NCBI RefSeq assembly: GCF_006265095.1
Contig: NZ_VCNK01000011.1
Coordinates: 1 to 64,000, forward strand
Source of the DNA: Phaeobacter sp. B1627
Lineage (GTDB): Bacteria > Pseudomonadota > Alphaproteobacteria > Rhodobacterales > Rhodobacteraceae
Length of the DNA: 64,000 nt
Direction: 5' to 3'
Part shown: in pieces, positions 2,077-54,697 of the stretch
Layout of the letters: the number at the start of each line of letters is the position of its first letter
Numbering within the stretch: the stretch's first letter is position 1
The notes under the pieces: generated by a model
The model's database searches: none
What the model was told of the DNA's origin: nothing
The model's input: the letters and a program-made list of their open reading frames with translations, nothing else
Program-made: the position numbers and the translations under genes

Positions 2077-2159
2077 CAAGACGGAGTCCGGGGAGAGGGG
2101 AGAAAGCGCATATGCTATGCAAATATGTATAACCCCTTTGATTTTAATAGGAAGTCTGA

Positions 2160-2184
2160 TTTTAGATCCGCATCGGACCTAAAA
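2160..2184. promoter_or_regulatory. Inverted repeat in the uppP-gltD divergent spacer
   Basis: Near-perfect 11-bp inverted repeat TTTTAGATCCG / CGGACCTAAAA (one mismatch) around a CAT loop. It lies between the divergent uppP and gltD starts, so it could be an operator or an RNA hairpin in one of the leaders. No specific regulator can be assigned. Confidence 0.4.
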
Positions 2185-2311
2185 ATACTGTACAATACCA
2201 ACGAAAGCGGTATTCAAGGCGGAGAAGTCCGAAAATAGGTCAGTATAGCTGACATTAATTCGGAACCGGAGGTTTTCTACCGTCGCCGCCAGCCAGAAGG
2301 AGAGTTTCGCC

Positions 2312-3754: not shown

Positions 3755-3872
3755 GTTGTCGCGGAGAAGGTGCCGGGTGAACCGGTCAGGGGATTTCACC
3801 GTTCCGCCGTGCAGCTCAGCACATCTATCGAACAGGTCAGCAGAGATGACCGATTAATCAGGAGGACCCATA

Positions 3873-4301
3873 ATGAGAGACGTGAAAGGACAGTGCCTGT
3901 GTGGCGCGGTCACGCTGACCGCCTCTGTGGACAATCCGATCCTGCGCGCTTGTCATTGTGACATGTGCCGACGCCATACCAGTTCCATGTTCCTGTCCCT
4001 CGCCATCACAGAGGGCAGCCTGACGGTGGATGGGCCTGCGAAATCATACCGGTCCTCCGACTGGGCCGAGCGGGGCTTCTGCGAGATCTGCGGATCCACG
4101 CTCTGGTATGGCACCGTTCATGACGGCGCCCGGCACCCTGCCGCCGGCTTGTTTGAAAATGCCGCCGGCGCACCGCTCAAGCTGGAGTTTTTCGAGGATA
4201 TGACACCGGACGGCTACGATCTGTCCGGCAACCATCGGAAAATGACCACAGAAGAAACCATAGCAATGTTTGCCCCTTCCGAAGAAGGAAACAGCCAATG
4301 A
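3873..4301 (+). CDS. GFA family (Gfa-like, Mss4-fold) zinc-binding protein
   Basis: Member of the glutathione-dependent formaldehyde-activating enzyme family (PF04828 type), 142 residues. The cysteine pattern is CLCGAV near the N-terminus, then CHCDMCRR, then CEICGSTLW, which would build the zinc site of the Mss4-like fold. Most family members have no proven formaldehyde activity. The ATG is preceded by an ideal AGGAGG. Its stop overlaps the gltB start by 4 bp (ATGA), so it is probably translationally coupled to gltB inside the GOGAT operon. That placement is noteworthy, but no function in glutamate synthesis can be inferred. Confidence 0.85.
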   Translation: MRDVKGQCLCGAVTLTASVDNPILRACHCDMCRRHTSSMFLSLAITEGSLTVDGPAKSYRSSDWAERGFCEICGSTLWYGTVHDGARHPAAGLFENAAGAPLKLEFFEDMTPDGYDLSGNHRKMTTEETIAMFAPSEEGNSQ

Positions 4302-13710: not shown

Positions 13711-14226
13711 CTATTCGGCGGCCTCGGAGCGTTTCGGCAGCACCCAATCCGGCCGGGCAAAATGACAGGTGTAGCCATTCGGGAGACGCTGCAAATAGTC
13801 CTGATGCTCCGGTTCGGCTTCCCAGAATTCACCGGCAGGCTCCAGCTCGGTGACGACTTTGCCGGGCCACAGACCAGAGGCATCGACGTCGGCGATGGTG
13901 TCTTCGGCAACACGCCTCTGATGGTCGTCGACATAGTAGATCGCGGATCGGTAGCTCATCCCCAGATCGTTCCCCTGGCGGTTTTCCGTCGAGGGGTCAT
14001 GGATCTGAAAAAAGAACTCCAGCATCTCGCGGTATGAGGTCAGCGCAGGATCGTAGATGATCTCAATCGCTTCCGCATGGGTTCCGTGATCGCGGTAGGT
14101 CGCGTTGGGAGCATCGCCGCCGGTGTAGCCGACACGCGTGGCCAGCACCCCTTTGCGGTTGCGGATCAGCTCCTGCATGCCCCAGAAACACCCCCCCGCG
14201 AGAACAGCACGTTCGGGTTTGCTCAT
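13711..14226 (-). CDS. msrA: Peptide-methionine (S)-S-oxide reductase MsrA
   Basis: Repairs the S-epimer of oxidised methionine in proteins. The catalytic GCFWG motif sits at residues 12-16 of the 171-residue protein, followed by the typical YTGG and HAEAIEI-type segments. The chosen start (ATG 14224-14226) overlaps the msrB stop in an ATGA and has GGAGG upstream; a longer in-frame extension to 14319 would run through msrB and is rejected. It pairs with msrB, which handles the R-epimer. Confidence 0.95.
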
Positions 14227-14672
14227 CGGTGATCCTCCACTTGGTGAATATAGGCGCCATAGCCCTCCGCCTCCATGTCGTCGAGATGGATAAAGCGCAG
14301 GGACGCCGAGTTGATACAATAGCGCAAACCGCCCCGGTCGGCCGGCCCGTCAGGAAAGACATGCCCCAAATGGCTGTCCCCATGGGTGGACCTGACCTCT
14401 GTGCGGATCATGCCGAGGCTGCGGTCTTCGATCTCCTGCACATGGGCGGTCTCGATCGGCTTGGTGAAACTCGGCCAGCCACAGCCGCTTTCGAATTTAT
14501 CCGCAGAGGCAAACAACGGCTCGCCCGACACGATATCTACATAGATGCCCGGTTCCGTGTTGTTGAGTAGCTTTCCGGTTCCCGGGCGTTCGGTGCCTGC
14601 GTTCTGGGTGACGTAGAATTCTTCCTCCGACAGTGCAGCGATGGCGTCGGGGTTCTTGAAAAATGTGGTCAT
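14223..14672 (-). CDS. msrB: Peptide-methionine (R)-S-oxide reductase MsrB
   Basis: Reduces methionine-R-sulfoxide. The 149-residue protein has [19 protein letters not shown] and the active-site [10 protein letters not shown] with the catalytic Cys. The zinc-binding CxxC pairs seen in many MsrBs are absent, so this is the zinc-free form. The start at 14672 follows a GGGAGGG ribosome site; ten further in-frame upstream codons are possible but have no such site. First gene of the msrB-msrA pair. Confidence 0.94.
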
Positions 14673-14806
14673 CGGGCCCTCCCACTTGATCTTCTGAGCC
14701 AATAGATGGGGTTGGACACTGCGCTTTCAAACTGTGAACCGCAAGAGGGCGGCGACATGAGAGTACCGGCCACCCCGAAAAGTGATCGTCAGCTCCGTCG
14801 GTGATG

Positions 14807-15706
14807 TCATCTTGCGCCTGTGGCCGCCGGCACAACAGATGCCGCAGGTTGCCGCGACAGCTGCACGGCGAGGATGCCGAATGTCACCACACAGACGCCC
14901 ACGACGTCCAGTCTGCCGAGGTTTTCGCCAAGCAGCAGGCTGGCGACGGCGACCCCGAACACCGGATTGAGGAAATGGAACGTGGCCGCGCGGATTGCTC
15001 CGATCCGATTGAGCAACAGCACCCAGATCAGGGTCGCGGCCAATCCCGGTACCAAGGTTGTGTAGGCGAAGGCGAAGACAAGTGGCCATGTCAGCGTGAC
15101 GTGGATGGTCTCAAAGGCGATCGCGGCGGGAAACAGAACGGCCGAGCCAATCAACATCTGCAACCCGACCACCATCATGAAGTTTCCCCCCGATGTGGCA
15201 CCACGCAGGGCAAGGGTGGCGGCCGTCAGCGCAACAACGCCCAATCCACACAGGCCGATCCCCATGAGGTCGACCCCGGCGCTGATCCGGGGAGTCATGA
15301 TCAGCGCAACACCGGCCACCCCGGCCAGCAAGCCCAACGCGCCAAGCGGCCGGATCCTTTCGCGAAACAGCACAACAGACGCAAGGGCCACCAGCAATGG
15401 CATGGTCGAGGCAATGATCGCCGCCAGCGAGGCCTCGATCCACTGCATCGCGACGAAATTCAAGCCGAGATAGAGCGCGTTCTGGCAGATGCCGAACAGG
15501 ATTGTCGCTTTCCACTGGCTCGGGGACAGGCGCCAGGACTGGCCCATCGCGCGCGCGATCATCACACCGATCACGCCAGAGACCAGAAATCGCAGCGCCA
15601 GCGAAAACAATGGCGAGGCGTCCGCCACAATGATCCGCGCGGATGTGAAGGCAGAGGACCACATGAGGGCAAAGGTCAGCCCCATCAGTATTGCTCTCAG
15701 GTCCAT
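14807..15706 (-). CDS. EamA-family (DMT) transporter
   Basis: Drug/metabolite-transporter-superfamily permease of about 299 residues, with the duplicated EamA domain and roughly ten hydrophobic helices. The substrate cannot be inferred; relatives export amino acids or other metabolites. The start MDLRAILMG at 15706 has a strong AGGAAGGG site. The longer in-frame extension to 15811 lacks one and reads through the HU terminator region. Confidence 0.88.
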   Translation of the reverse strand: MDLRAILMGLTFALMWSSAFTSARIIVADASPLFSLALRFLVSGVIGVMIARAMGQSWRLSPSQWKATILFGICQNALYLGLNFVAMQWIEASLAAIIASTMPLLVALASVVLFRERIRPLGALGLLAGVAGVALIMTPRISAGVDLMGIGLCGLGVVALTAATLALRGATSGGNFMMVVGLQMLIGSAVLFPAAIAFETIHVTLTWPLVFAFAYTTLVPGLAATLIWVLLLNRIGAIRAATFHFLNPVFGVAVASLLLGENLGRLDVVGVCVVTFGILAVQLSRQPAASVVPAATGAR

Positions 15707-15813
15707 CCGCCGCCCTTCCTGTGATCTTGGTGGCAGGCTAATCAGGTATCTCTGTGCTGAACAAGGGGGCGTTCCCCCTGAGGGGGGCTGCGGCGCAGGA
15801 AAAGTGATCAACG

Positions 15814-15841
15814 AAAAAGGGCCGCCCCAAAGGGCAGCCCC
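15814..15841 (-). terminator. Terminator downstream of the HU gene
   Basis: On the minus strand the stem GGGCTGCC/GGCGGCCC (one G-U) with a short loop is followed by TTTTTC, 26 bp after the HU stop. Confidence 0.8.
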
Positions 15842-15867
15842 GAAACAAGCACTCGATCACAAAGGGA

Positions 15868-16161
15868 TCAAGCGTCGCCGTTTACGCTGTCTTTCAGCGC
15901 TTTGGCGATGGTCATTTTCACGACCTTATCTGCTTCTTTCATGAACTTCTCACCGGTGGCCGGATTGCGAACTTCACGCTCGGGACGCTCGCGGCAGTAG
16001 ATTTTGCCGACACCGGGCAATGTCACGGCACCACCGCCGGACACTTCACGGGTGATCAGGTTGCAGACGGCATCCAGCGCGGCGCCAGCGGTTTTCTTGT
16101 CGCTGTCCATTTCCTCAGCCAATGCGGCCACAAGCTGAGTTTTGGTCATCGGTTTGGACAT
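15868..16161 (-). CDS. HU family DNA-binding protein
   Basis: Small basic nucleoid protein of 97 residues belonging to the HU/IHF family. The helical N-terminus (TKTQLVAALAEEM) is followed by the beta-arm region, here VGKIYCRERPEREVRNPATGE, which keeps the NPATG turn and places a Pro at the arm that intercalates into DNA. It would dimerise and bend DNA non-specifically. It stands alone between a terminator and a 140-bp upstream spacer. The C-terminal VVKMTIAKALKDSV segment is characteristic of the fold. Confidence 0.93.
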   Translation of the reverse strand: MSKPMTKTQLVAALAEEMDSDKKTAGAALDAVCNLITREVSGGGAVTLPGVGKIYCRERPEREVRNPATGEKFMKEADKVVKMTIAKALKDSVNGDA

Positions 16162-16304
16162 TACTTATTCTCCTAGATACTGCCCAACGTGTTGGGGCCT
16201 CATCGCGTAACTTTAGCGTTATGTTGTAGGACAACACAACGCGTAGCGAAGAAGATCAAGCGTCAATCAACCGATTTTCAGGGGAAAACACCATATTTTC
16301 GCGC

Positions 16305-17771
16305 TTATAGGAAGGCGGTTTCGTCAAAAGAGCGTAGTTTTCGGCTGTGCAGACGTTCAAGCGGCATTGTCCGCAACTGCTCCATTGCTTTTATTCCGAT
16401 CAACAGATGGCGTGAAACCTGGGTCCGGTAGAAGTCCGAGGCCATGCCCGGCAGCTTCAGTTCGCCGTGCAGGGGCTTGTCGGAAATGCACAGAAGCGTC
16501 CCGTAGGGCACCCGGAACCGGTAGCCATTGGCCGCGATTGTGGCGCTTTCCATATCCAGGGCGATGGCGCGCGACTGGCTCAGACGCTGGACCGGGCCGG
16601 ATTGGTCGCGCAATTCCCAATTTCGGTTGTCGTGGCTGGCAACGGTGCCGGTGCGCATGATCCGCTTGAGGTCATAACCTTCAAGACCGGTTTCCTGCTC
16701 CACGGCTTCTTCCAGGGCGACCTGTATTTCCGCCAGCGCCGGGATCGGCACCCAGACCGGCAGGTCATCGTCCAGCACATGGTCTTCGCGCAGGTAAGCA
16801 TGGGCAAGCACGAAATCCCCAAGCGCCTGACTGTTGCGCAGGCCCGCGCAATGCCCCACCATCACCCAGGCATGCGGGCGGAGCACCGCGATATGGTCGG
16901 TCGCGGTTTTTGCGTTCGAGGGGCCGACTCCGATGTTCACCAGGGTGATGCCGCTGCCGTCCGCCCGTTTCAGATGGTAGGTCGGCATCTGCGGCATTTT
17001 TGGCGTCGGAGGCAATTCGGTCGTCGAATCGGTGATTTCGGCATTTCCGGTCGACACAAAACTGGTATAGCCGCTGTCCGGATTGGCCAGTTGTTCACGG
17101 GCATAGGCCTCGAATTCCGTGACGTAGAACTGGTAGTTGGTGAACAACACATGGTTCTGGAAATGATCCGGGTCGGTGGCCGTATAATGAGCCAGCCGCG
17201 CCAGCGAATAGTCCACGCGCTGGGCGGTGAACAGTGACAGCGGACCAACACCATTCTCGGGGATATGGGTTCCGTTGACGATATCGTCATTGGTTGTGGC
17301 CAGATCCGGTACGTCGAACACGTCCCGCAGGGGGAACCGGGCGGCGCCTTCCTGGGGAACGGTCAGGCCCGGGCGCGACGCAACCGCGAAATGGACCGGC
17401 ATCGGGGTCTTTGACACGCCGACCACCACCGGTTGGTCGTGGTTCTTGATCAGCAAACCGATCTGTTGTTCCAGATAGTGCCGGAACAGCTCCGGCCGGG
17501 TGACTGTGGTGGCATAGGTGCCGGGATCCGCCACATGGCCAAAGCTCAACCGGCTGTCCACCTTGGCGTAGGTCGTGGTCGTGAACCGGACTTCGGGATA
17601 GAAGGCCCGCAGACGGCCGCCGGGCGACGCGCCTGCGCTCATCGCGGCGATAAACCCGTCACAGAGAAAATTGGTCGCCGCATCATATAGTTCGATCAGC
17701 CGGGCCACTGCGGCCTTGGGGTCGTTATAGGTCTCATCTGCGGGCAGAAGGGGGGTCTTGATATCACTCAT
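16305..17771 (-). CDS. amn: AMP nucleosidase
   Basis: Hydrolyses AMP to adenine and ribose 5-phosphate, cytoplasmic purine salvage or turnover. The 488-residue length matches the E. coli-type Amn family. The N-terminal half is the Amn-specific domain and the C-terminal half has the nucleoside phosphorylase-like fold, for example VNIGVGPSNAKT and ALDMESATIAANGYRFRVPYGT, with the Glu/Ser nucleoside-binding strip. It overlaps the end of the upstream adenine deaminase gene by 8 bp, so the two are co-transcribed and consecutive in pathway order. Confidence 0.94.
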   Translation of the reverse strand: MSDIKTPLLPADETYNDPKAAVARLIELYDAATNFLCDGFIAAMSAGASPGGRLRAFYPEVRFTTTTYAKVDSRLSFGHVADPGTYATTVTRPELFRHYLEQQIGLLIKNHDQPVVVGVSKTPMPVHFAVASRPGLTVPQEGAARFPLRDVFDVPDLATTNDDIVNGTHIPENGVGPLSLFTAQRVDYSLARLAHYTATDPDHFQNHVLFTNYQFYVTEFEAYAREQLANPDSGYTSFVSTGNAEITDSTTELPPTPKMPQMPTYHLKRADGSGITLVNIGVGPSNAKTATDHIAVLRPHAWVMVGHCAGLRNSQALGDFVLAHAYLREDHVLDDDLPVWVPIPALAEIQVALEEAVEQETGLEGYDLKRIMRTGTVASHDNRNWELRDQSGPVQRLSQSRAIALDMESATIAANGYRFRVPYGTLLCISDKPLHGELKLPGMASDFYRTQVSRHLLIGIKAMEQLRTMPLERLHSRKLRSFDETAFL

Positions 17772-45076: not shown

Positions 45077-46342
45077 TCAGGCGGTCAATTGGCTGCCGCT
45101 GATGCCTGTGATCTTTGTCGTCACCAGCGCCCCTTCGGTTTGCGGCACGGCAAAACGGACCTCGGTGAACTGTTCGGTGCGCCCCATGGTTGGGTTCTCC
45201 ATCAGCACGGAATGGGTGCGTCCCAACTGCTGCGCCAGATGTTTTTCCACCTGCGCATCGCCGGCAGCCCGCAGGCGGGCGGCACGGTCCTTGATCACGT
45301 TGCCGTTGACCTGCGTCGGAATTTTGGCGGCAGGGGTGCCCTCGCGTTTGGAATAGGGAAAGACATGAAGCCATGTCAGGTCGCAATCGCTGACCAGTTT
45401 CAGCGCGTTCTCGAAATGTGTTTCGGTCTCGGTGGGGAATCCTGCGATAATGTCGGCCCCGAAGGTCATGTCGGGGCGCAGCCTGCGCGCCTCCTCGACA
45501 AAGCGGATGGCATCGTCGCGCAGGTGGCGGCGTTTCATCCGTTTCAGAATCATGTCATCGCCATGCTGCAGGGACAGGTGCAGATGCGGCATCAGGCGGG
45601 GTTCGGTCGCAATGGCCTGCATCAGGTTCTCGTCCACCTCGATCGAATCGATTGAGGAAATCCGCAGACGGGGCAGGCCCGGCACCAGTTTGAGAATCCG
45701 CATCACCAGATCACCGAGCCTCGGCGTGGCGGGCAGGTCAGCCCCCCAGCTGGTGAGGTCGACGCCGGTCAGCACCACTTCGTTATAGCCCTTGTCCACC
45801 AGCCGCTTGATCTGATCGACCACGACACCTGCGGGCACCGACCGGGAATTGCCGCGGCCGTAGGGAATGATGCAGAACGTGCAGCGATGATCACAGCCAT
45901 TCTGGACCTGCACATAGGCGCGGCTGCGGGTGCCGAAACCGTCGATCAGATGGCTGGCGGTCTCGGTCACAGACATGATGTCGTCTACCAGCACCTTTTC
46001 CGTGGTGCCGATGAAATCCGGCCCTTTGGCCATGCGCTGCCAGGTTTCGGGCTGCATCTTTTCGGTATTGCCGATGACCTGGGTGACCTCTCCCATGGCG
46101 GCAAAGGTCTCCGGTTCGGTCTGGGCCGCGCAGCCGGTGACGATGATCGGCGCATCGGGGTTCTCGCGGCGCAGCTTGCGGATTTCCTGACGGGCCTTGC
46201 GCACGGCCTCTGCGGTGACGGCGCAGGTGTTCACCACCACGGCATTCTCCAGCCCGGCCTGGCGGCTCAGCTCTTTCATCGCCTCGGTTTCATAGGCGTT
46301 GAGGCGACATCCGAGGGTGGTGAATTTTGGCGCGCCGGTCAT
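45077..46342 (-). CDS. mtaB: tRNA t6A37 methylthiotransferase MtaB
   Basis: Radical-SAM methylthiotransferase converting t6A to ms2t6A at position 37 of ANN-decoding tRNAs. The 421-residue protein has the N-terminal UPF0004 cluster region (LGCRLNAYETEAM and NTCAVTAEAV), the radical-SAM motif C-DHRCTFC, and a C-terminal TRAM domain. Start at ATG 46342 on an ATGA overlap with dapF. Confidence 0.93.
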   Translation of the reverse strand: MTGAPKFTTLGCRLNAYETEAMKELSRQAGLENAVVVNTCAVTAEAVRKARQEIRKLRRENPDAPIIVTGCAAQTEPETFAAMGEVTQVIGNTEKMQPETWQRMAKGPDFIGTTEKVLVDDIMSVTETASHLIDGFGTRSRAYVQVQNGCDHRCTFCIIPYGRGNSRSVPAGVVVDQIKRLVDKGYNEVVLTGVDLTSWGADLPATPRLGDLVMRILKLVPGLPRLRISSIDSIEVDENLMQAIATEPRLMPHLHLSLQHGDDMILKRMKRRHLRDDAIRFVEEARRLRPDMTFGADIIAGFPTETETHFENALKLVSDCDLTWLHVFPYSKREGTPAAKIPTQVNGNVIKDRAARLRAAGDAQVEKHLAQQLGRTHSVLMENPTMGRTEQFTEVRFAVPQTEGALVTTKITGISGSQLTA

Positions 46343-47154
46343 TGGCTGATGCTTTCCAGAAACTGCTGCGTGAAGGTGCCGGACGCCACATGCATGGTCG
46401 GACCGGTCATCCAGACGCCGTCGTCGCGCCAGTCGATCCAAAGTGTGCCACCGTCAAGATCAATGCGGACCTTGCGTCCGGTGAGGCCCTTGCGGGCTGC
46501 GGCGACCGCCGTGGCGCAGGAGGATGACCCCGAGGCGAGCGTGACGCCGACGCCGCGCTCCCAGACGCGCATGCGAATGTGATCGGGACCGACCAGATGC
46601 GCGACCTGCACGTTTGTGCGCTGCGGATAGAGGGGATGATGTTCGTAGCGGGGGCCGAATTCGGCCAGCGGGATCAATTCGGCATCCTCGACGAAAAACG
46701 TGCAATGTGGATTGCCCATGCCGGTCGCCGTCGGCGCGCCCTCGATCGGCAATTCCAGCGTGTCCATGGCCTCGGCCAGCGGGATTTCGTCCCATTCGAG
46801 CTGCGGGTGCCCCATGTTGACAGAGGTCAGCCCGTCCCCTGCCTCCACTGCGACCAGATCGCCTCGGTCGGTGGTCAGGTGCAGACGGTCCTTGCCGGTT
46901 TCCTCCATCAGGTGGCGCGCGATGCAACGGGTGGCGTTGCCGCAGGCGGCCGAGGTCGAGCCATCGGCGTTGTAGAAGGTCAGATGCGCGTCGCCGCTGC
47001 CGCTCGTAATCACGGCAAGCTGATCAAACCCGATGCCAAATCGCCGGTGGGCGATTCCCTTGGCCATCGCGGCGGTGATCTGGATGTCGGTGGCACGGGC
47101 GTCCACGACCACAAAGTCGTTTCCCAGCCCATGCATTTTCATGAACGGCAGCAT
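46339..47154 (-). CDS. dapF: Diaminopimelate epimerase DapF
   Basis: Interconverts LL- and meso-diaminopimelate for lysine and peptidoglycan. The two catalytic cysteines lie in SAACGNATRC and GSSSCATAV. KMHGLGNDFVVVD is the N-terminal signature. The start at ATG 47154 (LPFMKMHG) is chosen because it gives the usual short N-terminus; ATG 47178 and 47187 are alternatives. mtaB overlaps its stop by 4 bp. Confidence 0.93.
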   Translation of the reverse strand: MLPFMKMHGLGNDFVVVDARATDIQITAAMAKGIAHRRFGIGFDQLAVITSGSGDAHLTFYNADGSTSAACGNATRCIARHLMEETGKDRLHLTTDRGDLVAVEAGDGLTSVNMGHPQLEWDEIPLAEAMDTLELPIEGAPTATGMGNPHCTFFVEDAELIPLAEFGPRYEHHPLYPQRTNVQVAHLVGPDHIRMRVWERGVGVTLASGSSSCATAVAAARKGLTGRKVRIDLDGGTLWIDWRDDGVWMTGPTMHVASGTFTQQFLESISQ

Positions 47155-47401
47155 TTGAGTGTCTCTTGGGGAGGTCATGAGCCGCATATAGACCCGCTGC
47201 GGAAATGAATCCAGAGATTGCGGAGAAAACTTTGCAAAAGGGGGTTGACCACATTCCGCCTTGGCCGTAGAAGCCCCCCCTATCGGAACGTAATGACCGT
47301 CATGGTCAAAGGGCTCCGGCCTGAAATAAGCGCTTGATCTTCCGGGGTTATTCAGCTTTAAGGGCGATCCGTGAAGGCCGGTTATGCCTTCAAAATAGAG
47401 T

Positions 47402-47477
47402 GGGCCGTTAGCTCAGTTGGTAGAGCAACTGACTTTTAATCAGTAGGTCGATGGTTCGAACCCATCACGGCTCACCA
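47402..47477 (+). tRNA. tRNA-Lys (anticodon TTT)
   Basis: Cloverleaf of 76 nt. Acceptor stem GGGCCGT/ACGGCTC (one G-U), D-arm GCTCAGTTGGTAGAGC, anticodon stem ACTGA/TCAGT with loop CTTTTAA, T-arm ending GGTTCGAACCC, and encoded CCA. The anticodon TTT reads AAA/AAG lysine codons. The accessory island starts 135 bp downstream. No repeat of the tRNA 3' end was found further on in the window. Confidence 0.97.
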
Positions 47478-47612
47478 CTTTCTTCAAAGACTTAGAGGAT
47501 TGCGATCACAGTGCTACCCTTGGCGGGTAAGCGCAAGGTAAGCTTTTGCCTCCGGTTTCTCTTTGATTTCCCCGATGGATTGCGTCAGCGTTAGCGCGAT
47601 AGGGAGACGATT

Positions 47613-48242
47613 ATGGGCCATATTAGGCTCGGCACTTTGCCACAGTCAAACAAGTGGCGCGATGTCGTTGGTTTAATTGATTCTGGTGCGTCAGTTGACG
47701 TGATAGCCGAGGCGGCGGCGAAGGCCTCGGAACGGGACCTTTCCAATGCGAGCAAGGACCCACGCTTTCAGTTCGCAGCATCGCTTCTTGTGCGACTTCC
47801 GCTTTTGGCCCGTGCGCCGGGGTTCGAGGACGCATTGGCTGACTTGGGATGTGGCGATAGTGCCTTGGTGTCGGTGGCCAATCTCTTAGCCGGTCTTGAC
47901 GCTGCCATTGAACGGCAGAGTTTCGGAACGGGGCACGCATCGGATGCCGGTCTTTTGGCCAAATCCGCTTTGCTCGAATCCTTGTCGGTGAATCTACGAG
48001 ATCGGTTGCCAACGTTGTTTGAACCGACTTCGCAGGAAGTTCGGATCGCGTTGGGGGAATTTGCCTCGGGCGACAAGTTTGCCCACTCAGCGCGAGATTT
48101 CTTTGCAAGACTGACCTATCGCTCTCTCGACTATTACCTAAGCCGAGAACTGGCCAACCAAATCGGGCAAGACCGTCGGTTTGCGAGTGACGCCCAGCGC
48201 GCCGCTTTCCAGCAAGCCTTGGCCGAACGTGGTTCGTGTTGA
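47613..48242 (+). CDS. Hypothetical protein, C-terminally fused to a restriction-gene remnant
   Basis: 209 residues, no recognised domain. It opens MGHIRLGTLPQSNKW and is helical and Leu/Ala-rich, for example LAGLDAAIERQ and FQQALAERG. The ribosome site upstream is AGGGAGACG. Past about residue 199 the DNA also reads in another frame as the interior of a DEAD-helicase/restriction endonuclease remnant (48208-48278), so the authentic C-terminus has probably been replaced by a deletion junction. It is the first gene after tRNA-Lys and the most intact part of the flanking island. I do not recognise the family. Confidence 0.7.
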   Translation: MGHIRLGTLPQSNKWRDVVGLIDSGASVDVIAEAAAKASERDLSNASKDPRFQFAASLLVRLPLLARAPGFEDALADLGCGDSALVSVANLLAGLDAAIERQSFGTGHASDAGLLAKSALLESLSVNLRDRLPTLFEPTSQEVRIALGEFASGDKFAHSARDFFARLTYRSLDYYLSRELANQIGQDRRFASDAQRAAFQQALAERGSC

Positions 48243-48278
48243 GTCGGTCGTTCGTCGCGAGCTGTCTGTCGATTGGTC
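48208..48278 (+). pseudogene. Left fragment of a DEAD-helicase/type III-like restriction endonuclease gene
   Basis: In the frame GTT GAG TCG GTC (from 48238) the bases encode a short stretch (VESVVRRELSV) that continues without a break into the right fragment after the IS66-like element if one copy of the 8-bp target duplication is removed. It has no start and overlaps the end of the hypothetical gene in a different frame. The 5' part of the gene has been deleted. Confidence 0.6.
48271..48278. repeat. Left target-site duplication of the IS66-like element
   Basis: GATTGGTC, identical to 52087-52094, directly abutting the left inverted repeat. An 8-bp duplication is the expected length for IS66-family insertion. 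Confidence 0.9.
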
Positions 48279-48291
48279 GTAAGCGTTGCAT
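48279..48291 (+). repeat. Terminal inverted repeat of the IS66-like element (one end)
   Basis: GTAAGCGTTGCAT, the exact inverse of 52074-52086. The GTAA terminus is typical of IS66-family ends. Confidence 0.9.
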
Positions 48292-48662
48292 GTGAACCCT
48301 GCCATAGGGGCTTTCGGGACTGGCAATAGGGTCCTATCTTGGCGCTACGCGCCAAGACGAAACGCCAAAAGATTCAAGATTTTCGGCCGATTCTGTGTAG
48401 AAACACAGATTTCCTGAAATCGCGAAGGACGATTCCCCCACTAGGCCGCTAGCGGCGACGGCATCGGAAAAAACCTCCCAAGATCACTCTGGCGAACACT
48501 ATTTCGAAGCATGCCATGTCCATGCGAGTTTTTATACAGCCTCGGCCCCGAGCTGACGGTCGAAGCGTGCCCACGCCGCCCCGCGGCTTTCCCGAAGCAG
48601 TCGCTCGTGGCTTTCATGCCGTCGATCAGACGCCATTGTTACAAATTGCGCCACTTTTTCAC
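48292..48662. other. Non-coding left arm of the IS66-like element
   Basis: About 370 bp between the terminal repeat and the helicase remnant without a credible gene. It contains a 7-bp hairpin TTGGCGC-TAC-GCGCCAA (48340-48356) and TCTGTGT-AGAA-ACACAGA (48392-48409). Composition is AT-richer than the neighbourhood. This is where the 3' part of a normal tnpC would be expected; no residue of it was recognised. Confidence 0.5.
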
Positions 48663-49470
48663 CTAGTCGCCTTCGGCTTCACGCATTCGCACCTCGAGCT
48701 CGTTCAGGAACGGAGAGCGCCCCCAATACTGTCGCCCGAAGCGGGTATCGACGAAACCAGAATATAGCATGTGGATTTCGTCGCGGGCCCGCGTTATCCC
48801 CACATAGAACAGACGTCGACTCTCACGCTGGGCCGCAGGTGCTTCGTTACGCCATGGCAGGCTACCAAGATCGAGTCCCACCATGATGACCACATCGTAC
48901 TCGCACCCCTTTGCAGAGTGCAGTGTCAACAAATTGAGGTGACGCGGTGACCCATCACGTCCACCAAGACTTGCGAGGTCAAGGTCCGCAAGCGGCCCAC
49001 CCTCTGCGACTGCCGCTGACATCCGCTCGACCTGTTCGCGCTGATCGCCAAGGCTCGGCTCAACCGCCATCAGCGCGTCGAGCATTCCTGCCCGCAGCTG
49101 CCGTTACGAAGTCGCGGGCTAGCCCCTCCTCATCAACTCGGAGCGACCAGAGAAGCCGAGTGAGGCTTTGCAATTCCGCGCTGGCCTCCGCATCTGAAAT
49201 CCGAGCGCGATGAAAACCGATCCAGCGGTCCAACAAGCCACGCAATTGCGGCTGCGCTTCACGCCAGCCCCCCCGCGCACCAGGCGGCGCAGTCCTCGAT
49301 CCAGCTCGTGAGTGCAACCTTGCGATAAGGCGCGGCCGTGGGGGCCGTCGCGCGCACAGCGAAAATCGGTTTCCCGCCCATGCCGACGGGGCTCTGACTG
49401 GAAGTGGGCCGGCGCTGCCGTAACTTGGTGCGGCCATTCTGGCTCAGGTCGGCTTCTCGCCCAAATACCG
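48663..49470 (-). pseudogene. Frameshifted C-terminal fragment of a UvrD/Rep-like helicase
   Basis: Reading the minus strand gives pieces in changing frames that join into the C-terminal part of a superfamily 1 helicase. Recognisable segments are a stretch ending RRPTSSQ, a GGKPIFAVRA block, WREAQPQLRGLLDRW, then LHSAKGCEYDVVIMVG (motif V region) and RRLFYVGITRARDEIHML (motif VI with Arg finger). One frame change falls at a 7-C run (49268-49274) and another near 49085-49095. A stop and sequence change near 49470 mark the lost 5' part, so motif I/Walker A is absent. It cannot encode an active helicase. Confidence 0.72.
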
Positions 49471-49566
49471 CTCAGCTGGGCAATGCCACGGGAGCAACCT
49501 GTGGTACTCTGCCAGCGGCAATTTCATTGCGATCCTCTCTAACACCCAGCTAAGGTAAGGGAGCAC

Positions 49567-49887
49567 GTGGCTCCACGGCTCGAGCATTGGTCATCGCACT
49601 TAGGCGTTGCCACCGAAACCTGGGGCATCCGGCCAATGAAAACGAAATGGGGCAGCTGCAATCCGGACAAGAAAATCGTCTGGCTTAATCTCGAGCTCGC
49701 CAAGAAACCCGTTCGGGCGATTGAGTACGTATTGCTGCATGAGCTCGCCCACCTGATATCGCCGCGCCATGATGAGCGTTTCATCAAGGTCCTTGACGAC
49801 AATATGCCGAAGTGGCGCAGCATACGCGACGAGCTCAATCAGTATCCGCTTGCCGCGTGGGAAGATCTGCAGGCTTTGGCTCGGTGA
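49567..49887 (+). pseudogene. 5'-truncated YgjP-like (DUF45/M48-type) metallopeptidase fragment
   Basis: The 106-residue frame encodes the C-terminal half of the YgjP/SprT-like family: KTKWGSCN, then the zinc motif LLHELAHLI (HExxH) with the third ligand His in SPRHDERF, and DNMPKWRSIR. The usual N-terminal 120 or so residues are missing; an in-frame stop lies at 49540. The homologous 5' side meets the helicase fragment head-to-head near 49500, as though a deletion removed the starts of both. Zinc site retained, but likely non-functional. Confidence 0.72.
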
Positions 49888-50091
49888 CGTTGTCGCTCGG
49901 ATTGTCGGTTGCGCGCGATTTTTCAGGGCTTGCCGCCGCAGCTCCATTCCCCGTTCCACAAATCGCCGAACACGTTCCGGATCTGGTTCGACATCTCGTA
50001 TCGAACAGCGGTAGGCGATGGTGACATGGATGGCGCCAACGATGCATGCACCGATACCAAACACGACGAAGATGATCTCGAATTCAGTCAC
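49600..50091 (-). CDS. Hypothetical small membrane protein with an antisense-fused tail
   Basis: GTG start at 50091 with GGGAGG upstream and 39 bp after the AAA gene stop. Residues 3-26 (EFEIIFVVFGIGACIVGAIHVT) form one membrane helix, followed by a basic, charged stretch (PERVRRFVERGMELRRQAL). The last ~95 codons lie exactly opposite the YgjP-like fragment and are probably not native coding; the genuine protein may end near residue 65. Function unknown. The spacing suggests it is the next gene after the AAA ATPase in the element's operon. Confidence 0.5.
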   Translation of the reverse strand: MTEFEIIFVVFGIGACIVGAIHVTIAYRCSIRDVEPDPERVRRFVERGMELRRQALKNRAQPTIRATTSPSQSLQIFPRGKRILIELVAYAAPLRHIVVKDLDETLIMARRYQVGELMQQYVLNRPNGFLGELEIKPDDFLVRIAAAPFRFHWPDAPGFGGNA

Positions 50092-50130
50092 GAAGCCGCC
50101 TCCCTTGTGTGATGAGCTCGTGAAATCGGT

Positions 50131-51219
50131 TCAATGCAGCGTGGGGTGACATTCGAGATCGGCTGCCCTCTGCAGCACCCGTGCCGCAGTTCTCAGACTC
50201 GGTTGGCTTGCCTGGCCCGCACGCTTGAAAGCTTCGACCGCCGCATCCAGAGCCACATCGCTGGTGCCCTGCTTGCGCCCTTCGCGCCAGATGAACATCA
50301 CCAGTTCGTCAGTCGTTAACGCTCGTAGGGCTATCGGTGGGCATCTGCTCAGGAGCGGCTCTGGCAACGCGTGGTAGTTGTTGGATGTCAGGACCCAGAT
50401 CACCCAGCTCATGTCGAACTTAACCTGATAGAATGGGCAACTCCAGCTTCTTGCGGTCATGGGCTCCAGCAGGGGTAGCAGCGCCTCCGACAGCCCGAAC
50501 GCGCGGCCTGACATGGACGTTGCAGTCCCCGACTTCTCGACCTCATCAACGACCATGACCGGATTGCCGACATGTTCCCTAAGGATCGTGGAAATGAGAC
50601 GCCCCGGTCCGGCGCTTCCCCATCCACGCTGAGACCCGACGACACCGAAAGACGCATTCTCATTGGTTGCCTCGATAACGGTTGGGGGGACGGTCAAGAG
50701 GCGGCCAAGGCGCCGCGCCCAAAAGCTCTTGCCAATCCCGGGAGGGCCATCGAGCAGGATGGGCGGCAGGCGAAGACCTATGGAGCCTTCTCTCACAGAC
50801 CTGCGCATGGCCTTCCAGATCTGTTCGGTCGCGGGTCCCATCCAGGGCATTTCGTCGTGAAGGGCCGCCGCGATTTCATCCGCTTGGTGTTCGGTCTTCA
50901 CCGTCGCAAGCCGAACGCCGCCTGCCAAGGCGGTCAATCGCTCGCGCTCATCCCTCTGCAAATGGCCCATCCCTGACGCTTCCTGGCGGCGTGTGATAAG
51001 TTTCTTGACGCGTTTTTGGATCCTGCTCTTCTCGTGATGGGTTATCCTCACCTCATGCAGTTCCTGATTGTCGACTCCAAGCAGTTCGACTTCATGCGCC
51101 GGCTGGCCGACCAGGCCACTCCGCAGTAGCCGTAGGTGCTTGATGAAGCGCTTTTCGAGGTAGTCCGCGGTCTGCTCGACGGGAAAAATCTTGCACTGAA
51201 TGAATGGGATCGTCGCCAT
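50131..51219 (-). CDS. AAA+ ATPase encoded in an IS66-like element (in the tnpC position)
   Basis: 362-residue AAA-family ATPase. Residues 1-150 form an N-terminal domain rich in Lys/Arg and Glu. Walker A is GPPGIGKS (158-165), Walker B VMVVDE (221-226), followed by a sensor-1 type WVLTSNNYH and an Arg-finger-like LLSRCPP. The C-terminal lid is helical. The overall plan resembles Lon/Clp-like or chaperone AAA modules; no protease site is seen. Its ATG lies 1 bp after the tnpB stop (TGAGATG) with GGAGG inside the end of tnpB, so translation is coupled. Its place in the operon is that of tnpC. It could assist transposition or be cargo; the sequence alone cannot decide. Confidence 0.78.
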   Translation of the reverse strand: MATIPFIQCKIFPVEQTADYLEKRFIKHLRLLRSGLVGQPAHEVELLGVDNQELHEVRITHHEKSRIQKRVKKLITRRQEASGMGHLQRDERERLTALAGGVRLATVKTEHQADEIAAALHDEMPWMGPATEQIWKAMRRSVREGSIGLRLPPILLDGPPGIGKSFWARRLGRLLTVPPTVIEATNENASFGVVGSQRGWGSAGPGRLISTILREHVGNPVMVVDEVEKSGTATSMSGRAFGLSEALLPLLEPMTARSWSCPFYQVKFDMSWVIWVLTSNNYHALPEPLLSRCPPIALRALTTDELVMFIWREGRKQGTSDVALDAAVEAFKRAGQASQPSLRTAARVLQRAADLECHPTLH

Positions 51220-51220
51220 C

Positions 51221-51601
51221 TCACTCGACCTCCGCGGTTGTTTTGTTGAAAATGGAGGGGTGGTGATAGGCGGCCGAAACGACGCGGCGCCAATCGATCC
51301 CTTCAAAGAGCGCCTCAAATTGTGCCTTCGTCAGGGTCATCGTCCCGTCGGAAAGTTTGGGCCAGACGAAGCCTGCGCCTTCGATACGCTTGTAGATCAG
51401 CACGAGGCCGGTACCGTCCCACATCAGAACCTTGATCTTGTCACGCCCCTTCGAGCGGAAGACGAAGAATGCACCGGAGAAGGGATCGAGTTCGAAATTG
51501 GTCATGACGTAATTGGCCAAGCCGTCCATGCCTTTCCGAAAGTCGACAGGCTGCGTGGCAAGATAGATGCGGTAGCTGCTGGATGGTGCGATCACTGACA
51601 C
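51221..51601 (-). CDS. tnpB: IS66 family accessory protein TnpB
   Basis: 126-residue TnpB (IS66 OrfB type). Diagnostic segments: YLATQPVDFRKGMDGLAN, GAFFVFRSKGRDKIKVLMWD, and FVWPKLSDGT with the QFEALFEGIDWRRV ending. Its last 19 or so residues (AAYHHPSIFNKTTAEVE end) are unlike the usual basic tail and lie directly upstream of the AAA start. It overlaps tnpA by 10 bp, the normal IS66 arrangement. Confidence 0.9.
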   Translation of the reverse strand: MSVIAPSSSYRIYLATQPVDFRKGMDGLANYVMTNFELDPFSGAFFVFRSKGRDKIKVLMWDGTGLVLIYKRIEGAGFVWPKLSDGTMTLTKAQFEALFEGIDWRRVVSAAYHHPSIFNKTTAEVE

Positions 51602-51996
51602 TGCCTCGCGACTCGGATCAGTTTGAGCAGATCAGGCTCAGCAACGTGCAATGGAAACTTAATGCAAATCGCTCCCACATACAGATGTGCCGAGCTGTCC
51701 CCTGTGTTGGATGATGGGACCGTTGGTTGTTCAGAAGGATCCGCTGGTGCGGAAATTGCCACCTGAGCGAAGGCTGGGCCTTCGACCGCGATTTTTTCAC
51801 CACGACTGCGACGGTCGGCAACCCACCACTTCCGTACAAGGCACTCATGAGCACCTATTTCAGCAGCAACCTCACCTGGAGAGGTGTCCGCTTCCCGCAG
51901 TCGCCTCGTTGCCTCGCGTTTGAGTTCATTCGGCCAAATCTTTTTGCCCGACGGAGATCTCTGGATTTTGAAACCCCAGACTTCCTGGTCCGCCAT
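51592..51996 (-). CDS. tnpA: IS66 family accessory protein TnpA (HTH)
   Basis: 134-residue IS66 OrfA-type protein with a Myb/HTH-like N-terminal DNA-binding region (KIWPNELKREATRRLREAD and VAAEIGAHECLVRKWW). It is first in the tnpA-tnpB order and lies nearest the IS66-type end at 52086. It ends on a short overlap with tnpB. Confidence 0.88.
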   Translation of the reverse strand: MADQEVWGFKIQRSPSGKKIWPNELKREATRRLREADTSPGEVAAEIGAHECLVRKWWVADRRSRGEKIAVEGPAFAQVAISAPADPSEQPTVPSSNTGDSSAHLYVGAICIKFPLHVAEPDLLKLIRVARQCQ

Positions 51997-52073
51997 TTTT
52001 GCCTCCGGTAGTGATTTGGAAGCATAGTAGTCGATATCCCGAGCACGGGTTTAGAGGGCAAATAGGGGGCCAG

Positions 52074-52086
52074 ATGCAACGCTTAC
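52074..52086 (-). repeat. Terminal inverted repeat of the IS66-like element (tnpA-proximal end)
   Basis: ATGCAACGCTTAC, the inverse of 48279-48291. The following bases repeat GATTGGTC. Confidence 0.9.
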
Positions 52087-52094
52087 GATTGGTC
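52087..52094. repeat. Right target-site duplication of the IS66-like element
   Basis: GATTGGTC, identical to 48271-48278. It is also the codon run for Asp-Trp in the restriction-gene remnant that follows. Confidence 0.9.
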
Positions 52095-52512
52095 GAACGT
52101 TGAGACTCTTACGCTTGATCCTGCCTCTACGCCTATCAGCGCGGATTTAGCGCCCGCTCTAGGCGGCGCAACGGACCTAGGCAAAGTCTCCTCGATTGAC
52201 TTGGAAGAGCTCCCAAATGGCTTCAGGCTTCAACGCCTCGTGTTTCAAGCCGCCCGAAAGGGGTTCGCAGACTTGAACCATAGCTTCAGAGGCTCGGAGG
52301 ACCTGCTTGCAGCGCAGCTTGTCCGAATGGTCGAAGAATTCATCAGCTCTGAGGCTCTGCATATTCCCTCGGTGTTTCATTCTGACCCCTTAGGGCGTCG
52401 CATTCTAATCGCTCTGAACATCGATCTAGTTGTTCAACACCTGATGAAATCCGAAAGTTCGGCGGTGGTGGTGACGCTGTGTCAAAACCGTTTTAGCTCC
52501 TTCAGGGGCTGA
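52087..52512 (+). pseudogene. Right fragment of a DEAD-helicase/type III-like restriction endonuclease gene
   Basis: Open frame without a start, from the target duplication into DWSNVETLTLD..., then GKVSSIDLEELPNGFRLQRL, ...AQLVRMVEEFISSEAL and RRILIALNIDLVVQHL. This recalls the C-terminal-middle part of the large helicase-linked restriction subunits annotated as BPTD_3080-family restriction endonucleases. Homology ends near 52447; the last ~20 codons are foreign. The left end is interrupted by the IS66-like element and the right by rearranged DNA and an IS3 remnant. Confidence 0.62.
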
Positions 52513-52741
52513 CCACGTTTCTTGCCGGGGAATACAAACGGATGGCTAGGGTTCCTGTCTTTCGGTTGCCACGTTCAAACACACCGGACGCGCCCTCAAG
52601 CAAAGCCCGTTTCCATTGGTGGATCATCGTCGGGTGGACTCCAAACCGACTGGCCAACTCGCTGACCGTTTCCTCGCCTTTCAGCGCCTCCAGCGTAACT
52701 TTGGCCTTAAACTCTGGGTGATGTTGCTTCCGTTTCGACAT
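52502..52741 (-). pseudogene. Truncated IS3-family OrfA (transposase helix-turn-helix)
   Basis: Begins MSKRKQHHPEFKAKV with an AAGGAG site, followed by an HTH (TVSELASRFGVHPTMIHQWK) and ALLEGASGVFERG. After about residue 61 the reading leaves the family and stops 18 codons later, so orfA lacks its C-terminal leucine-zipper part and orfB is absent. Confidence 0.82.
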
Positions 52742-52820
52742 CTCTGATCTCCTTCTCGTTGAAGATCAGCAGACAACAAATCGCAGCTTACGTCAGTGTC
52801 CGAATTGCGGGGGGGTAACG
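52559..52820 (-). mobile_element. Remnant of an IS3-family element (one end)
   Basis: Contains the start of orfA and, at 52790-52820, a terminal-like end with GTTACCCCCCCGCAATTCGG on the minus strand. The other end and orfB are missing. It marks the right border of the decayed island. Confidence 0.65.
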
Positions 52821-52859
52821 GGCCACAATCGCCAACAGATTGTTAATACCCCTATGCGA

Positions 52860-52873
52860 AACTCATATGAGTT
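52860..52873. promoter_or_regulatory. 14-bp perfect palindrome upstream of the histidine kinase gene
   Basis: AACTCATATGAGTT, a perfect palindrome 45 bp before the chosen kinase start and immediately before an alternative GTG start. Size and position suggest an operator. Confidence 0.4.
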
Positions 52874-52918
52874 GTGCGTTTCAGTGTGGTTAAGTCGGTT
52901 TCAGAGAGTAATGGCATC

Positions 52919-54697
52919 ATGGTTAGAGAACCCGAAGAAAAGAGGGAGCTCACATCTTTTCATATCATGGTGGTGGTTCTCTCTCTTTCCATGACAATAG
53001 GCGCTTGGCTCTATTCCAGACATCAGGTCGAACTCCAGATAGAGGGCCGGTTTGAAGCGGCCAAGGCGAGGGCCGTTGGCCTTATCGAAGACCGCATGTC
53101 CCGGTACGAGGACGCGCTTTGGTCGGGGGTTGCGTTTATTGATGCCAACGGAGGACAGGTTGAGTTGGAAGAATGGCGCACCTTCGCACAGTCTCTTAAT
53201 CTTGAGGACAGATATCCGGGCGTGAACGGAATCGGTGTGATCGATTATGTGCGCCGCGAAAATCTCGAATCCTATATGACCCACAGAAAATTGGAGGCGC
53301 GGGAGTTTTCAGTGTTTCCGCAACATGATCACGACATCCTGCTGCCGATAACCTTCATAGAACCTGCAAGCGTCAACTGGGCCGCGGTCGGGCTGGATGT
53401 GGCGCATGAAATAAACAGGCGCACGGGTCTCCTCGCGGCACGTGACACAGGCACTGCGCGCATCACCGGTCCCATTGTTCTTGTACAGGACAGCGGTCAC
53501 ACGCCCGGCTTTTTGTTTTACACCCCCATCTATCGCGGCGAACGCCCCACCACTGCAGAAGAGCGGCGCGAGCGATTCCTTGGCGTTGTCTACGCGCCAT
53601 TTGTGGTAAAAAAACTCGTCGCGGGTCTCCTGTCCAAAGACCTGCGAGAAGTTCGGTTCAGTCTGCGGGATGGCGATGAGCTGATATATGACGAGCATGA
53701 TGAAGATGAACCGCTCCATGACGACGATCCGATGTTCACGGACAGGGTAGAGATCGAAATGTATGGTCGGATCTGGACCGTAGAGGTCAAAACGAACCTC
53801 GCCTTCCGCTCGAACAATGGCTCGGATCTGCCAACTTTCATCCTTGTTGGCGGTCTTATTATTGAGATTCTTGTGATCACGATGCTGGCCTTGCTGTCCC
53901 GTTCGAACCGCAAGGCACGCCTTTATGCGAATAAACTGACAAAAGAGCTGCGGGCGAAGTCGGACACCCTCGAAAAGGCCAATGCAGAAATCGAACAATT
54001 CGTCTACGTCGCGTCGCATGATCTCAAAACGCCCGTCCGGGGCATCGGGTTTCTGACGGACGTCATAGAAGAGGACCTCACGGAAATCCTCGGTCCTCTC
54101 GACAAACACCCCGAGATCACGACACAGCTCGGCATGATCCGCGACCGTGTGAACCGGATGAACGATCTCACGCGGGGGATCATGGATTTTTCGCGCGTCA
54201 GCCATGGCGCAGAGGCGTCCGCGCCGGAACTGTCGGTCAGAAACCTCATCGACGATTGTATCGCGGACTTCAAGGTCACCCCCGCTCAGGTTCGTGTGGA
54301 GTCTGAGGTCGCCACAATCGGCTACGACAGCCTCCATTTCCGCCGTGTGCTGGAGAACCTCATCGGCAATGCGGTCAAGTACCACCCGAACCCCCAAAAG
54401 GCACTTGTAGATGTTGTCATTGAGGATCAGCAGGACAAGTTGCGTGTCCTGGTCAAGGACAACGGCAAGGGCATTGCCCCGAAATTCCATGACCGGATCT
54501 TTGATGTTTTCCAGACACTCAGATCAGGAGACCAGAAGGAAAGTACCGGTATTGGCCTGGCAATCGTCAAAAAAGCCGTGGAGCGTCACGGATACCACAT
54601 CTTCCTCAAATCATCTGAAGGACATGGAGCGGAATTTACTTTTTTTTGGCCAACGGGGCGTGAGCTCGATGCAATGAATGTGGATAAAGTTGCCTGA
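52919..54697 (+). CDS. CHASE-like sensor histidine kinase
   Basis: 592 residues. A first membrane helix (about 13-33), an extracytoplasmic domain of roughly 260 residues with CHASE-like features (PGVNGIGVIDYV, DILLPITFIEPA, GFLFYTPIYRG), a second helix (LVGGLIIEILVITMLALLS), then a short coiled coil and a HisKA domain with YVASHDLKTPVRG. The HATPase has ENLIGNAVKYHP and STGIGLAIVKKAVERHG. The ligand is unknown; CHASE domains sense small molecules. The start is uncertain: GTG 52874 is in frame. It is followed at once by its likely partner response regulator. Confidence 0.88.
   Translation: MVREPEEKRELTSFHIMVVVLSLSMTIGAWLYSRHQVELQIEGRFEAAKARAVGLIEDRMSRYEDALWSGVAFIDANGGQVELEEWRTFAQSLNLEDRYPGVNGIGVIDYVRRENLESYMTHRKLEAREFSVFPQHDHDILLPITFIEPASVNWAAVGLDVAHEINRRTGLLAARDTGTARITGPIVLVQDSGHTPGFLFYTPIYRGERPTTAEERRERFLGVVYAPFVVKKLVAGLLSKDLREVRFSLRDGDELIYDEHDEDEPLHDDDPMFTDRVEIEMYGRIWTVEVKTNLAFRSNNGSDLPTFILVGGLIIEILVITMLALLSRSNRKARLYANKLTKELRAKSDTLEKANAEIEQFVYVASHDLKTPVRGIGFLTDVIEEDLTEILGPLDKHPEITTQLGMIRDRVNRMNDLTRGIMDFSRVSHGAEASAPELSVRNLIDDCIADFKVTPAQVRVESEVATIGYDSLHFRRVLENLIGNAVKYHPNPQKALVDVVIEDQQDKLRVLVKDNGKGIAPKFHDRIFDVFQTLRSGDQKESTGIGLAIVKKAVERHGYHIFLKSSEGHGAEFTFFWPTGRELDAMNVDKVA

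Follow-up and report, generated by a model that had tools for sequence, protein, structure and literature searches.

A 3.8-kb IS66-type element of Phaeobacter sp. B1627 is very probably an internally deleted copy of a large transposon carrying predicted defence genes

How can an element of the IS66 family keep both of its ends intact and lack a working gene for its transposase, TnpC? This question is raised by an IS66-type element of 3,808 bp at positions 48279-52086 of a 64,000-nucleotide (64-kb) stretch of DNA from Phaeobacter sp. B1627 (contig NZ_VCNK01000011.1 of assembly GCF_006265095.1), the whole of which is called the window here. The IS66 family is usually regarded as one of insertion sequences whose passengers, if any, are small, and terminal repeats that start with GTAA are a trait of the family. 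The original prediction described one transposed 3.8-kb unit with perfect 13-bp GTAA-type inverted repeats and an exact 8-bp duplication, and this was borne out. The left terminal inverted repeat, GTAAGCGTTGCAT (48279-48291, plus strand), was located from the sequence and with a repeat tool, and its reverse complement forms the right terminal repeat (52074-52086, minus strand); the two are perfect over 13 bp, and the repeat tool extends them to 23 nt at 87%. The target-site duplication (TSD) GATTGGTC lies to the left at 48271-48278 and has an exact copy to the right at 52087-52094. With GTAA-initial ends at both termini and an exact 8-bp duplication, the element has the hallmarks of the IS66 family. 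It was the only pair in the window that combined a 13-bp perfect inverted repeat with an exact 8-bp duplication at a spacing of 0.5-20 kb, and no such pair arose in 10 mononucleotide shuffles of the window. Additionally, the right end at 52086 is where similarity ceases in the eight close loci that were compared (seven of them independent, as described below): the match to the window continues to ...ATGCAACGCTTAC, and the bases beyond differ. The host genome contains one full-length copy of the 3.8-kb element.

The structure of the element became evident upon its alignment with a relative in Oceanicella sp. SM1341, which is 16,569 bp long and has an exact TSD. The alignment consisted of three blocks. 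Positions 1-1062 of the window element correspond to Oceanicella 1-1061 with 94.8% identity, and the left termini are identical in position; positions 1058-1279 correspond to 4262-4481 (89.2%); and positions 1278-3808 correspond to 14038-16569 (89.5%). The sizes balance, as the two gaps of 3,200 and 9,556 bp add up to 12,756 bp, compared with a difference in length of 12,761 bp between the two elements (predicted remainder 3,813 bp, observed 3,808 bp). Because the window copy has kept both ends, is collinear with a relative that bears tnpC and has lost the transposase, it is very probably, on the strength of these alignments, an internally deleted, non-autonomous copy of an IS66-family transposon of approximately 16.5 kb. 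The 3.8-kb copy itself is a product of ordinary decay and is new only as a specimen.

The interior of the element is made up of remnants on the left and open genes on the right. At 48663-49340 (minus strand), a frameshifted 3' remnant of the Gabija gene gajB, which encodes a UvrD-like helicase, is collinear with the gajB of Oceanicella; it represents the C-terminal part, its fragment 48666-49085 matches the PADLOC GajB model PDLC00108 at 2.5e-72, and no frame is open through it. The first deletion junction follows at 49336-49340, where the alignments overlap by 5 nt and 3,200 bp of the Oceanicella-type parent are gone. Block 2 contains a remnant of tnpC, comprising the last 37 codons and the stop of the IS66 DDE transposase gene (49444-49557, minus strand), which was located through comparison with the Oceanicella element and aligns with the C-terminus of its TnpC. 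The second junction (49556-49557) has a 2-nt overlap and accounts for the loss of 9,556 bp, namely most of tnpC, hsdM, hsdS, hsdR and the 5' half of ygjP. The remaining 3' part of the YgjP-like metallopeptidase gene occupies 49556-49887 (plus strand) and matches PF01863 at 2.3e-31 over profile positions 118-206 of 207; the full-length product in the relatives has 246 amino acids, and the whole gene is present in locus L063. Further to the right lie, all on the minus strand and all open, a gene for a 362-residue AAA+ ATPase with a Lon-like AAA domain (50131-51219; PF00004, 4.3e-9), whose ATG is one base past the tnpB stop; tnpB, or IS66 Orf2 (51221-51601, 126 residues; PF05717, 2.4e-37; NF033819, 2.6e-33); and tnpA (51592-51996, 134 residues). 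In total, the two deletions took the greater part of both the Gabija system and tnpC, half of ygjP and the type I restriction-modification genes.

These results modify the earlier claims about the coding content. Both tnpA and tnpB had been reported; tnpB is clear, whereas tnpA matched NF047595 only weakly (8.9e-8, 32.7 bits against a curated cut-off of 74), although it overlaps the tnpB start as expected from its position. The absence of a functional tnpC was correct, but the statement that nothing in the element resembled tnpC was not, given the 37-codon C-terminal stub. In a search with TnpC profiles, which had been proposed as a check, PF03050 (DDE_Tnp_IS66) had four matches in the host genome, none of them inside the element, and PF13817 (DDE_Tnp_IS66_C) matched the stub at 4.6e-5 and 24 bits, below the 30-bit cut-off. 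It had also been suggested that tnpC was lost to cargo; instead, the two internal deletions removed tnpC and most of the cargo together and left the stub. Cargo and transposase loss are combined in the sense that cargo remnants lie in an element with no functional tnpC, but the parent already carried cargo. A tnpC remnant inside the element had been named beforehand as the observation that would make this a case of ordinary decay, and the stub is such a remnant.

The events can be reconstructed as follows. The parent very probably had the order seen in Oceanicella, left end-gajB-gajA-tnpC-hsdM-hsdS-hsdR-ygjP-AAA+ ATPase-tnpB-tnpA-right end. As their termini and flanks show, parent-type elements insert via GTAAGCG... 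inverted repeats and generate an 8-bp duplication, and the alignment shows that two deletions at sites of 2-5 nt overlap stripped the defence cargo and nearly all of tnpC. TnpC, as the DDE transposase, would make the cuts at the GTAAGCG ends, and TnpA and TnpB would probably act as accessory factors. Since the window copy retains the ends, tnpA and tnpB, it would be mobilisable only by TnpC supplied in trans.

Several observations weigh against this simple derivation. The tnpA protein of the window shares only 66-69% amino acid identity with those of five delimited relatives, compared with 94.5-97.5% for the AAA protein and 96.8-99.2% for TnpB in the same five. From element position 3,277, DNA identity to three of the relatives falls to 53-78% per 100-bp block, while the last 100-bp block of the tnpA region is at 85-90% and the remaining right part at 89-100%. 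This divergence implies that the window copy is also recombinant and that the Oceanicella element is not its literal ancestor. Moreover, the deleted form has no second witness: the joined junctions did not turn up in any of 393 further genomes of the family, for each of which no more than two candidates were scored, or in the 17 other genomes of the genus. When window positions 46000-53900 were searched against 18 genomes of the genus, including its own, all 18 matched over the first 1.5 kb of the query; the stretch shared by all congeners is confined to the flank to the left of about 47,500, and its own genome alone had a match across the element itself. In favour of the derivation from such a parent, two congeners carry joined fragments of another kind. 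In G592 (L249, 9640-10123), a piece of hsdM (Oceanicella 6842-7078, 89%) adjoins the ygjP-AAA spacer (14337-14593, 95%), and in G586 (L250, 9520-9895), a piece of hsdR (12050-12325, 87%) adjoins 102 bp of window-type tnpA (96%). Neither ends nor complete copies were found with these fragments, which indicate that a larger, hsd-bearing form was once in the genus and decayed through other joins too.

The close loci were collected through the AAA protein (94-98% amino acid identity) and comprised 7 of the 21 loci of one search, from Pseudodonghicola, Sagittula, a Methylocystaceae metagenome-assembled genome, Chachezhania, Mesobaculum, Oceanicella and Alloyangia, together with G139 of another search. 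The latter repeats the Chachezhania sequence, as L015 and L034 do not differ over 4,079 bp; the eight loci therefore include seven independent ones. Loci of Citreicella and Celeribacter match the right-hand part only. Six of the seven independent loci were extended, and five were delimited at both ends. Four of these elements have an exact 8-bp duplication (Mesobaculum, 15,656 bp; Sagittula, 15,741 bp; Oceanicella; Alloyangia, 16,840 bp), and in the Chachezhania element (16,767 bp) seven of the eight TSD bases match. For the sixth, from Pseudodonghicola, no left end was found before the contig edge, at which its tnpC lies.

The overall architecture of the five delimited elements is the same: from the right end, tnpA-tnpB-AAA is followed by ygjP, hsdR, hsdS, hsdM and tnpC, and then by a second cargo slot that reaches the left end. 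All five thus have the layout of a passenger-bearing IS66 element, with tnpA, tnpB, tnpC and passengers within one pair of ends, which the window copy does not. The hsd genes of Chachezhania match PADLOC type I models along their length. The left slot is variable. It contains Gabija in Chachezhania, another Gabija in Oceanicella (L106; GajA 1.4e-236 beside GajB 3.9e-238), a PDC-M01AB/Septu-like pair in Sagittula, a PDC-S19 protein with one unmatched and one unscanned protein in Mesobaculum, and a Hachiman-type helicase (best match HamB, 3.3e-30) with one unmatched protein in Alloyangia; four kinds of predicted defence-type module thus occupy the slot beside tnpC. The stretch in the Mesobaculum slot resembles plasmid genes annotated as hypothetical and as TauD/TfdA dioxygenase. 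From about hsdR onward, the right part is 93.6-95.1% identical in all ten pairwise comparisons of the five elements; their TnpC pieces share 30-62% identity, except for the Alloyangia-Chachezhania pair (78%). The parent type encodes the DDE_Tnp_IS66 domain (PF03050, 9e-73 in L063). All five carry tnpC, which is open throughout in Chachezhania (567 residues) and Sagittula (560 residues), has one stop each in Oceanicella and Mesobaculum, and is in two pieces in Alloyangia.

Two plasmid loci resemble parts of these elements. The Gabija locus of Rhodobacter capsulatus pRCB133 has 91% DNA identity to the left part of the window element; it was rejected as a further copy, as the 12.8 kb fetched contained no exact GTAAGCG. 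In a plasmid of Rhodobacteraceae SC52 (L007 347-1583; CP049030.1 1-6755), a related region spans the origin of the record and includes hsd genes, ygjP, tnpB and tnpA-like DNA; the AAA stretch is seemingly gone from it, as the two matching pieces are separated by 141 bp rather than about 1,350.

More distant elements of similar organisation were also delimited. The G020 element is 14,278 bp long, with an exact TSD, AAGCAAAC, and ends that match at 19 of 20 positions; an element of 15,414 bp on a Martelella plasmid has an exact TSD, AATATACT, and ends matching at 16 of 20, compared with a best of 11 of 20 in 30 mononucleotide shuffles of two loci. In each of these elements, tnpA-tnpB-AAA occupies one end and tnpC is far away from it. 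The cargo of the G020 element is a short prokaryotic Argonaute (pAgo; pAgo_I, 1.3e-211) with a SIR2 partner (3.9e-219). The Martelella element carries annotated secretion genes, a large hypothetical protein and an acyltransferase, and no defence system was recognised in it. Its plasmid record (NZ_CP066788.1, 246,197 bp) and CP070278.1 (Dysgonomonadaceae zrk40, 246,192 bp) show similar matches to the queries. Both records derive from cold-seep samples, and one may be mislabelled. A scan for GTAA ends and TSDs in 25 AAA loci gave no end pair in 18, the other 7 being the delimited elements. All seven delimited large elements (14-17 kb) carry tnpC; they were found through the AAA gene, so the presence of AAA in all of them is by construction.

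A survey that was not anchored on the AAA gene compared the window TnpB with 244 genomes of the order, 58 of which had a match at 1e-20; the best match in each of 30 of these genomes was taken, sampled by closeness to the window TnpB, and neighbours were called by tblastn with self-made queries. Among the 14 closest loci, tnpC directly followed tnpB in none: five had AAA in that place (including the window and Chachezhania, and one with only a 38% partial match), three had a gene 52-54% identical to an annotated metallophosphoesterase, and six had neither. Among the next 16 loci, tnpC came directly after tnpB in 15. In a tree of 41 TnpB rows, one branch (support 96/96) sets all 17 rows with tnpC next, together with one of undetermined neighbour, apart from the other 23, which include the window; two of the 23 rows duplicate loci represented elsewhere in the tree, and the deepest forks on this side are weak.

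One locus on the window's side of that branch bears on whether tnpC-less units occur elsewhere. The G075 element (L233) is 3,097 bp long, with ends matching at 19 of 20 positions and the exact duplication GGTGCGCA, and is a single copy in its genome. Besides tnpA and tnpB, it has a metallophosphoesterase-like gene, for which Pfam gave no match at 0.01, and two further open frames. Neither tnpC nor a remnant of it was detected, the best tblastn hit to any TnpC query being at E 0.16. Units without tnpC and with exact ends are thus not confined to the window, and the broader idea of a tnpC-less form in the original prediction gains support from this element. In addition, L231 contains at 2160-3686 a unit of 1,527 bp with GTAAGCGTTGCA-type ends and only tnpA, tnpB and a metallophosphoesterase-like gene; a duplication was sought there and none was found. 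No complete pair of ends was found for L227, L228 or L234. Near L225 2471-2503, the region upstream of tnpA contains two tandem GTAAGCGTTGCAT ends separated by 20 bp, which may reflect a nested or repeated insertion at an end.

The G075 element also bears on the main alternative, namely that the 3.8-kb form itself transposed as a mobile IS66-derived element by using the TnpC of another IS66 element. We consider this unlikely, though it has points in its favour: the ends and TSD of the window copy are exact; tnpA, tnpB and AAA have no stops; the ratios of nonsynonymous to synonymous substitution rates (dN/dS) against the five relatives are low (AAA, 0.06-0.14; tnpB, 0.01-0.04; tnpA, 0.09-0.15); the host genome has one open TnpC of 560 residues on contig C45 (G000:C45); and the G075 element is an independent example with an exact TSD and no remnant. 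However, the dN/dS values mostly mirror the time before the deletion, and the window element and the G075 element are each a single copy. The lack of the junctions in the 393 family genomes, within the two candidates scored for each, and in the 17 congeners argues in the same direction. As for the host TnpC, its identity to the C-terminal portion of Oceanicella TnpC is just 42-43%, and its locus has an end-like motif of another type, GTAAGCGGTGTATCGG; mobilisation of the window copy by this protein is possible but unsupported.

A second alternative, that the AAA+ ATPase replaced tnpC and the unit transposes without a DDE transposase, is suggested by the location of the AAA gene in the tnpC position, immediately after tnpB, and by its presence there in 5 of the 14 closest tnpB loci, none of which has tnpC in that place. 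The properties of the protein make this very improbable. Its best relatives of solved structure are Lon protease AAA domains (6.9e-14), and the best of five predicted models (mean predicted local distance difference test score 80, predicted template modelling score 0.72; the others 56-73; alignment of 13 rows) matches Lon in the PDB with an E value of 1.4e-11, a template modelling score of 0.52 and a root mean square deviation of 11.4. A nuclease domain was sought in it and none was found, and domain profile scans reported no protease domain. The surroundings of the gene were examined in 60 of 84 order-wide AAA matches: 2 had tnpB upstream, 6 had TniA or TniB at a distance of up to 10 kb, and 17 had a metallophosphoesterase or DUF6634 at up to 4 kb, while 38 had none of the marker partners. 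Outside those 60, tnpB is also upstream in the window, in Chachezhania and in G184:C59 (L236). We rejected the AAA+ protein as a replacement transposase because of its Lon-like fold and the presence of tnpC in all seven delimited large elements, and we rejected it as an IS66-only gene because tnpB was upstream in just 2 of the 60 loci. It is best described as a mobile-element-associated protein, for which a role as a transposition accessory is conceivable but the less favoured option; otherwise, it would be a passenger. The same AAA+ family was observed near TniABQ-type transposition genes in L189 (Ketogulonicigenium vulgare pYP12), L098, L097 and L094, which suggests a module common to IS66-like and Tn7-like transposons; L189 and L098 also have metallophosphoesterase, DUF6634-like and restriction genes. 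Finally, a chance assembly of repeats or an assembly artefact that fused unrelated fragments might be read from the patchwork of gene fragments in the interior, but it is hardly credible for an exact TSD and 13-bp inverted repeat that are unique in the window and absent from the shuffles, fragments collinear with one known element, and a right end located where the close loci cease to be similar.

Two further observations concern the host genome. A second tnpA-tnpB-AAA module is present at G000:C44:130145-132191 (L144), with an AAA protein 49% identical to that of the window and a right end, GTAAGCGGTGTAAACACCCC, 74 bp before tnpA; neither a left end nor tnpC was found in the 58 kb examined. 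The right flank of the window element contains a C-terminal remnant of a BPTD_3080-family restriction endonuclease (52201-52512, 1e-9) and a fragment resembling insertion-sequence TnpA/OrfA (52502-52741), so the element neighbours other decayed genes.

With the window copy read as a deletion derivative, its relatives point to a little-noticed class of IS66 transposons that carry predicted anti-phage defence between bacteria. IS66-type ends bound units of 14-17 kb, five of which share a restriction-modification block with about 94-95% DNA identity across genera, and the predicted defence module beside tnpC varies from element to element, which provides a testable case for the spread of defence genes. 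The separation of tnpAB from tnpC additionally allows one to ask about the roles of TnpA and TnpB and the sharing of TnpC in trans. More tentatively, we suggest as one joint claim that these elements may form a distinct IS66 lineage of the Rhodobacterales, for which no name was found, in which tnpA-tnpB is uncoupled from tnpC. An AAA+ or metallophosphoesterase-like gene would often take the tnpC place, with tnpC kilobases away or missing; the lineage would serve as a shuttle for exchangeable defence systems (Gabija, Septu/PDC-M01-like, PDC-S19, Hachiman-like, short pAgo-SIR2 and type I restriction-modification), and its tnpC-less members would persist and move on borrowed TnpC.

The source class is a new form of passenger-bearing IS66 element, with defence cargo and with its accessory and transposase genes separated. 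Among the matches listed in the open-licence PubMed Central literature, IS66 transposons with defence cargo or with tnpAB split from tnpC were not found. In PMC12888890, IS66 elements with passengers are termed tIS66, such as ISPa75 with fosZ, and 7 of the 25 Pseudomonas IS66 members in ISfinder are stated to carry passengers. As described there, ISPa75 is similar to the present elements in belonging to the IS66 family, in having tnpA, tnpB and a DDE transposase gene with a passenger, and in its GTAAGCG-type left end. It differs in being 2,996 bp long with the passenger downstream of the transposase gene, whereas the parent elements measure 14-17 kb and have cargo separating tnpAB from tnpC, most of these elements carrying predicted defence systems; in the window copy, a functional tnpC is missing. 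From the same bacterial order, ISPpa5a and ISPpa7 of Paracoccus (PMC3281130) share the family and the 8-bp duplications; they are insertion sequences of 2.7-2.8 kb, and the word "passenger" is absent from the main text of that paper.

Tn7-like transposons, according to PMC8649781, likewise carry diverse defence systems as cargo, and the relatives of the AAA+ protein with TniA or TniB within 10 kb (6 of 60 loci) provide a further link. Unlike them, the window-type elements have IS66 TnpA, TnpB and TnpC and an 8-bp TSD, and tblastn at 1e-5 detected no TniA, TniB or TniQ in the five delimited elements. The window copy itself can be compared with the non-autonomous derivatives of insertion sequences that are named in PMC3281130, miniature inverted-repeat transposable elements (MITEs) and mobile insertion cassettes (MICs), in which both ends are likewise kept and the transposase is absent. 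Unlike MITEs and MICs as named there, it has retained tnpA and tnpB and has a length of 3.8 kb.

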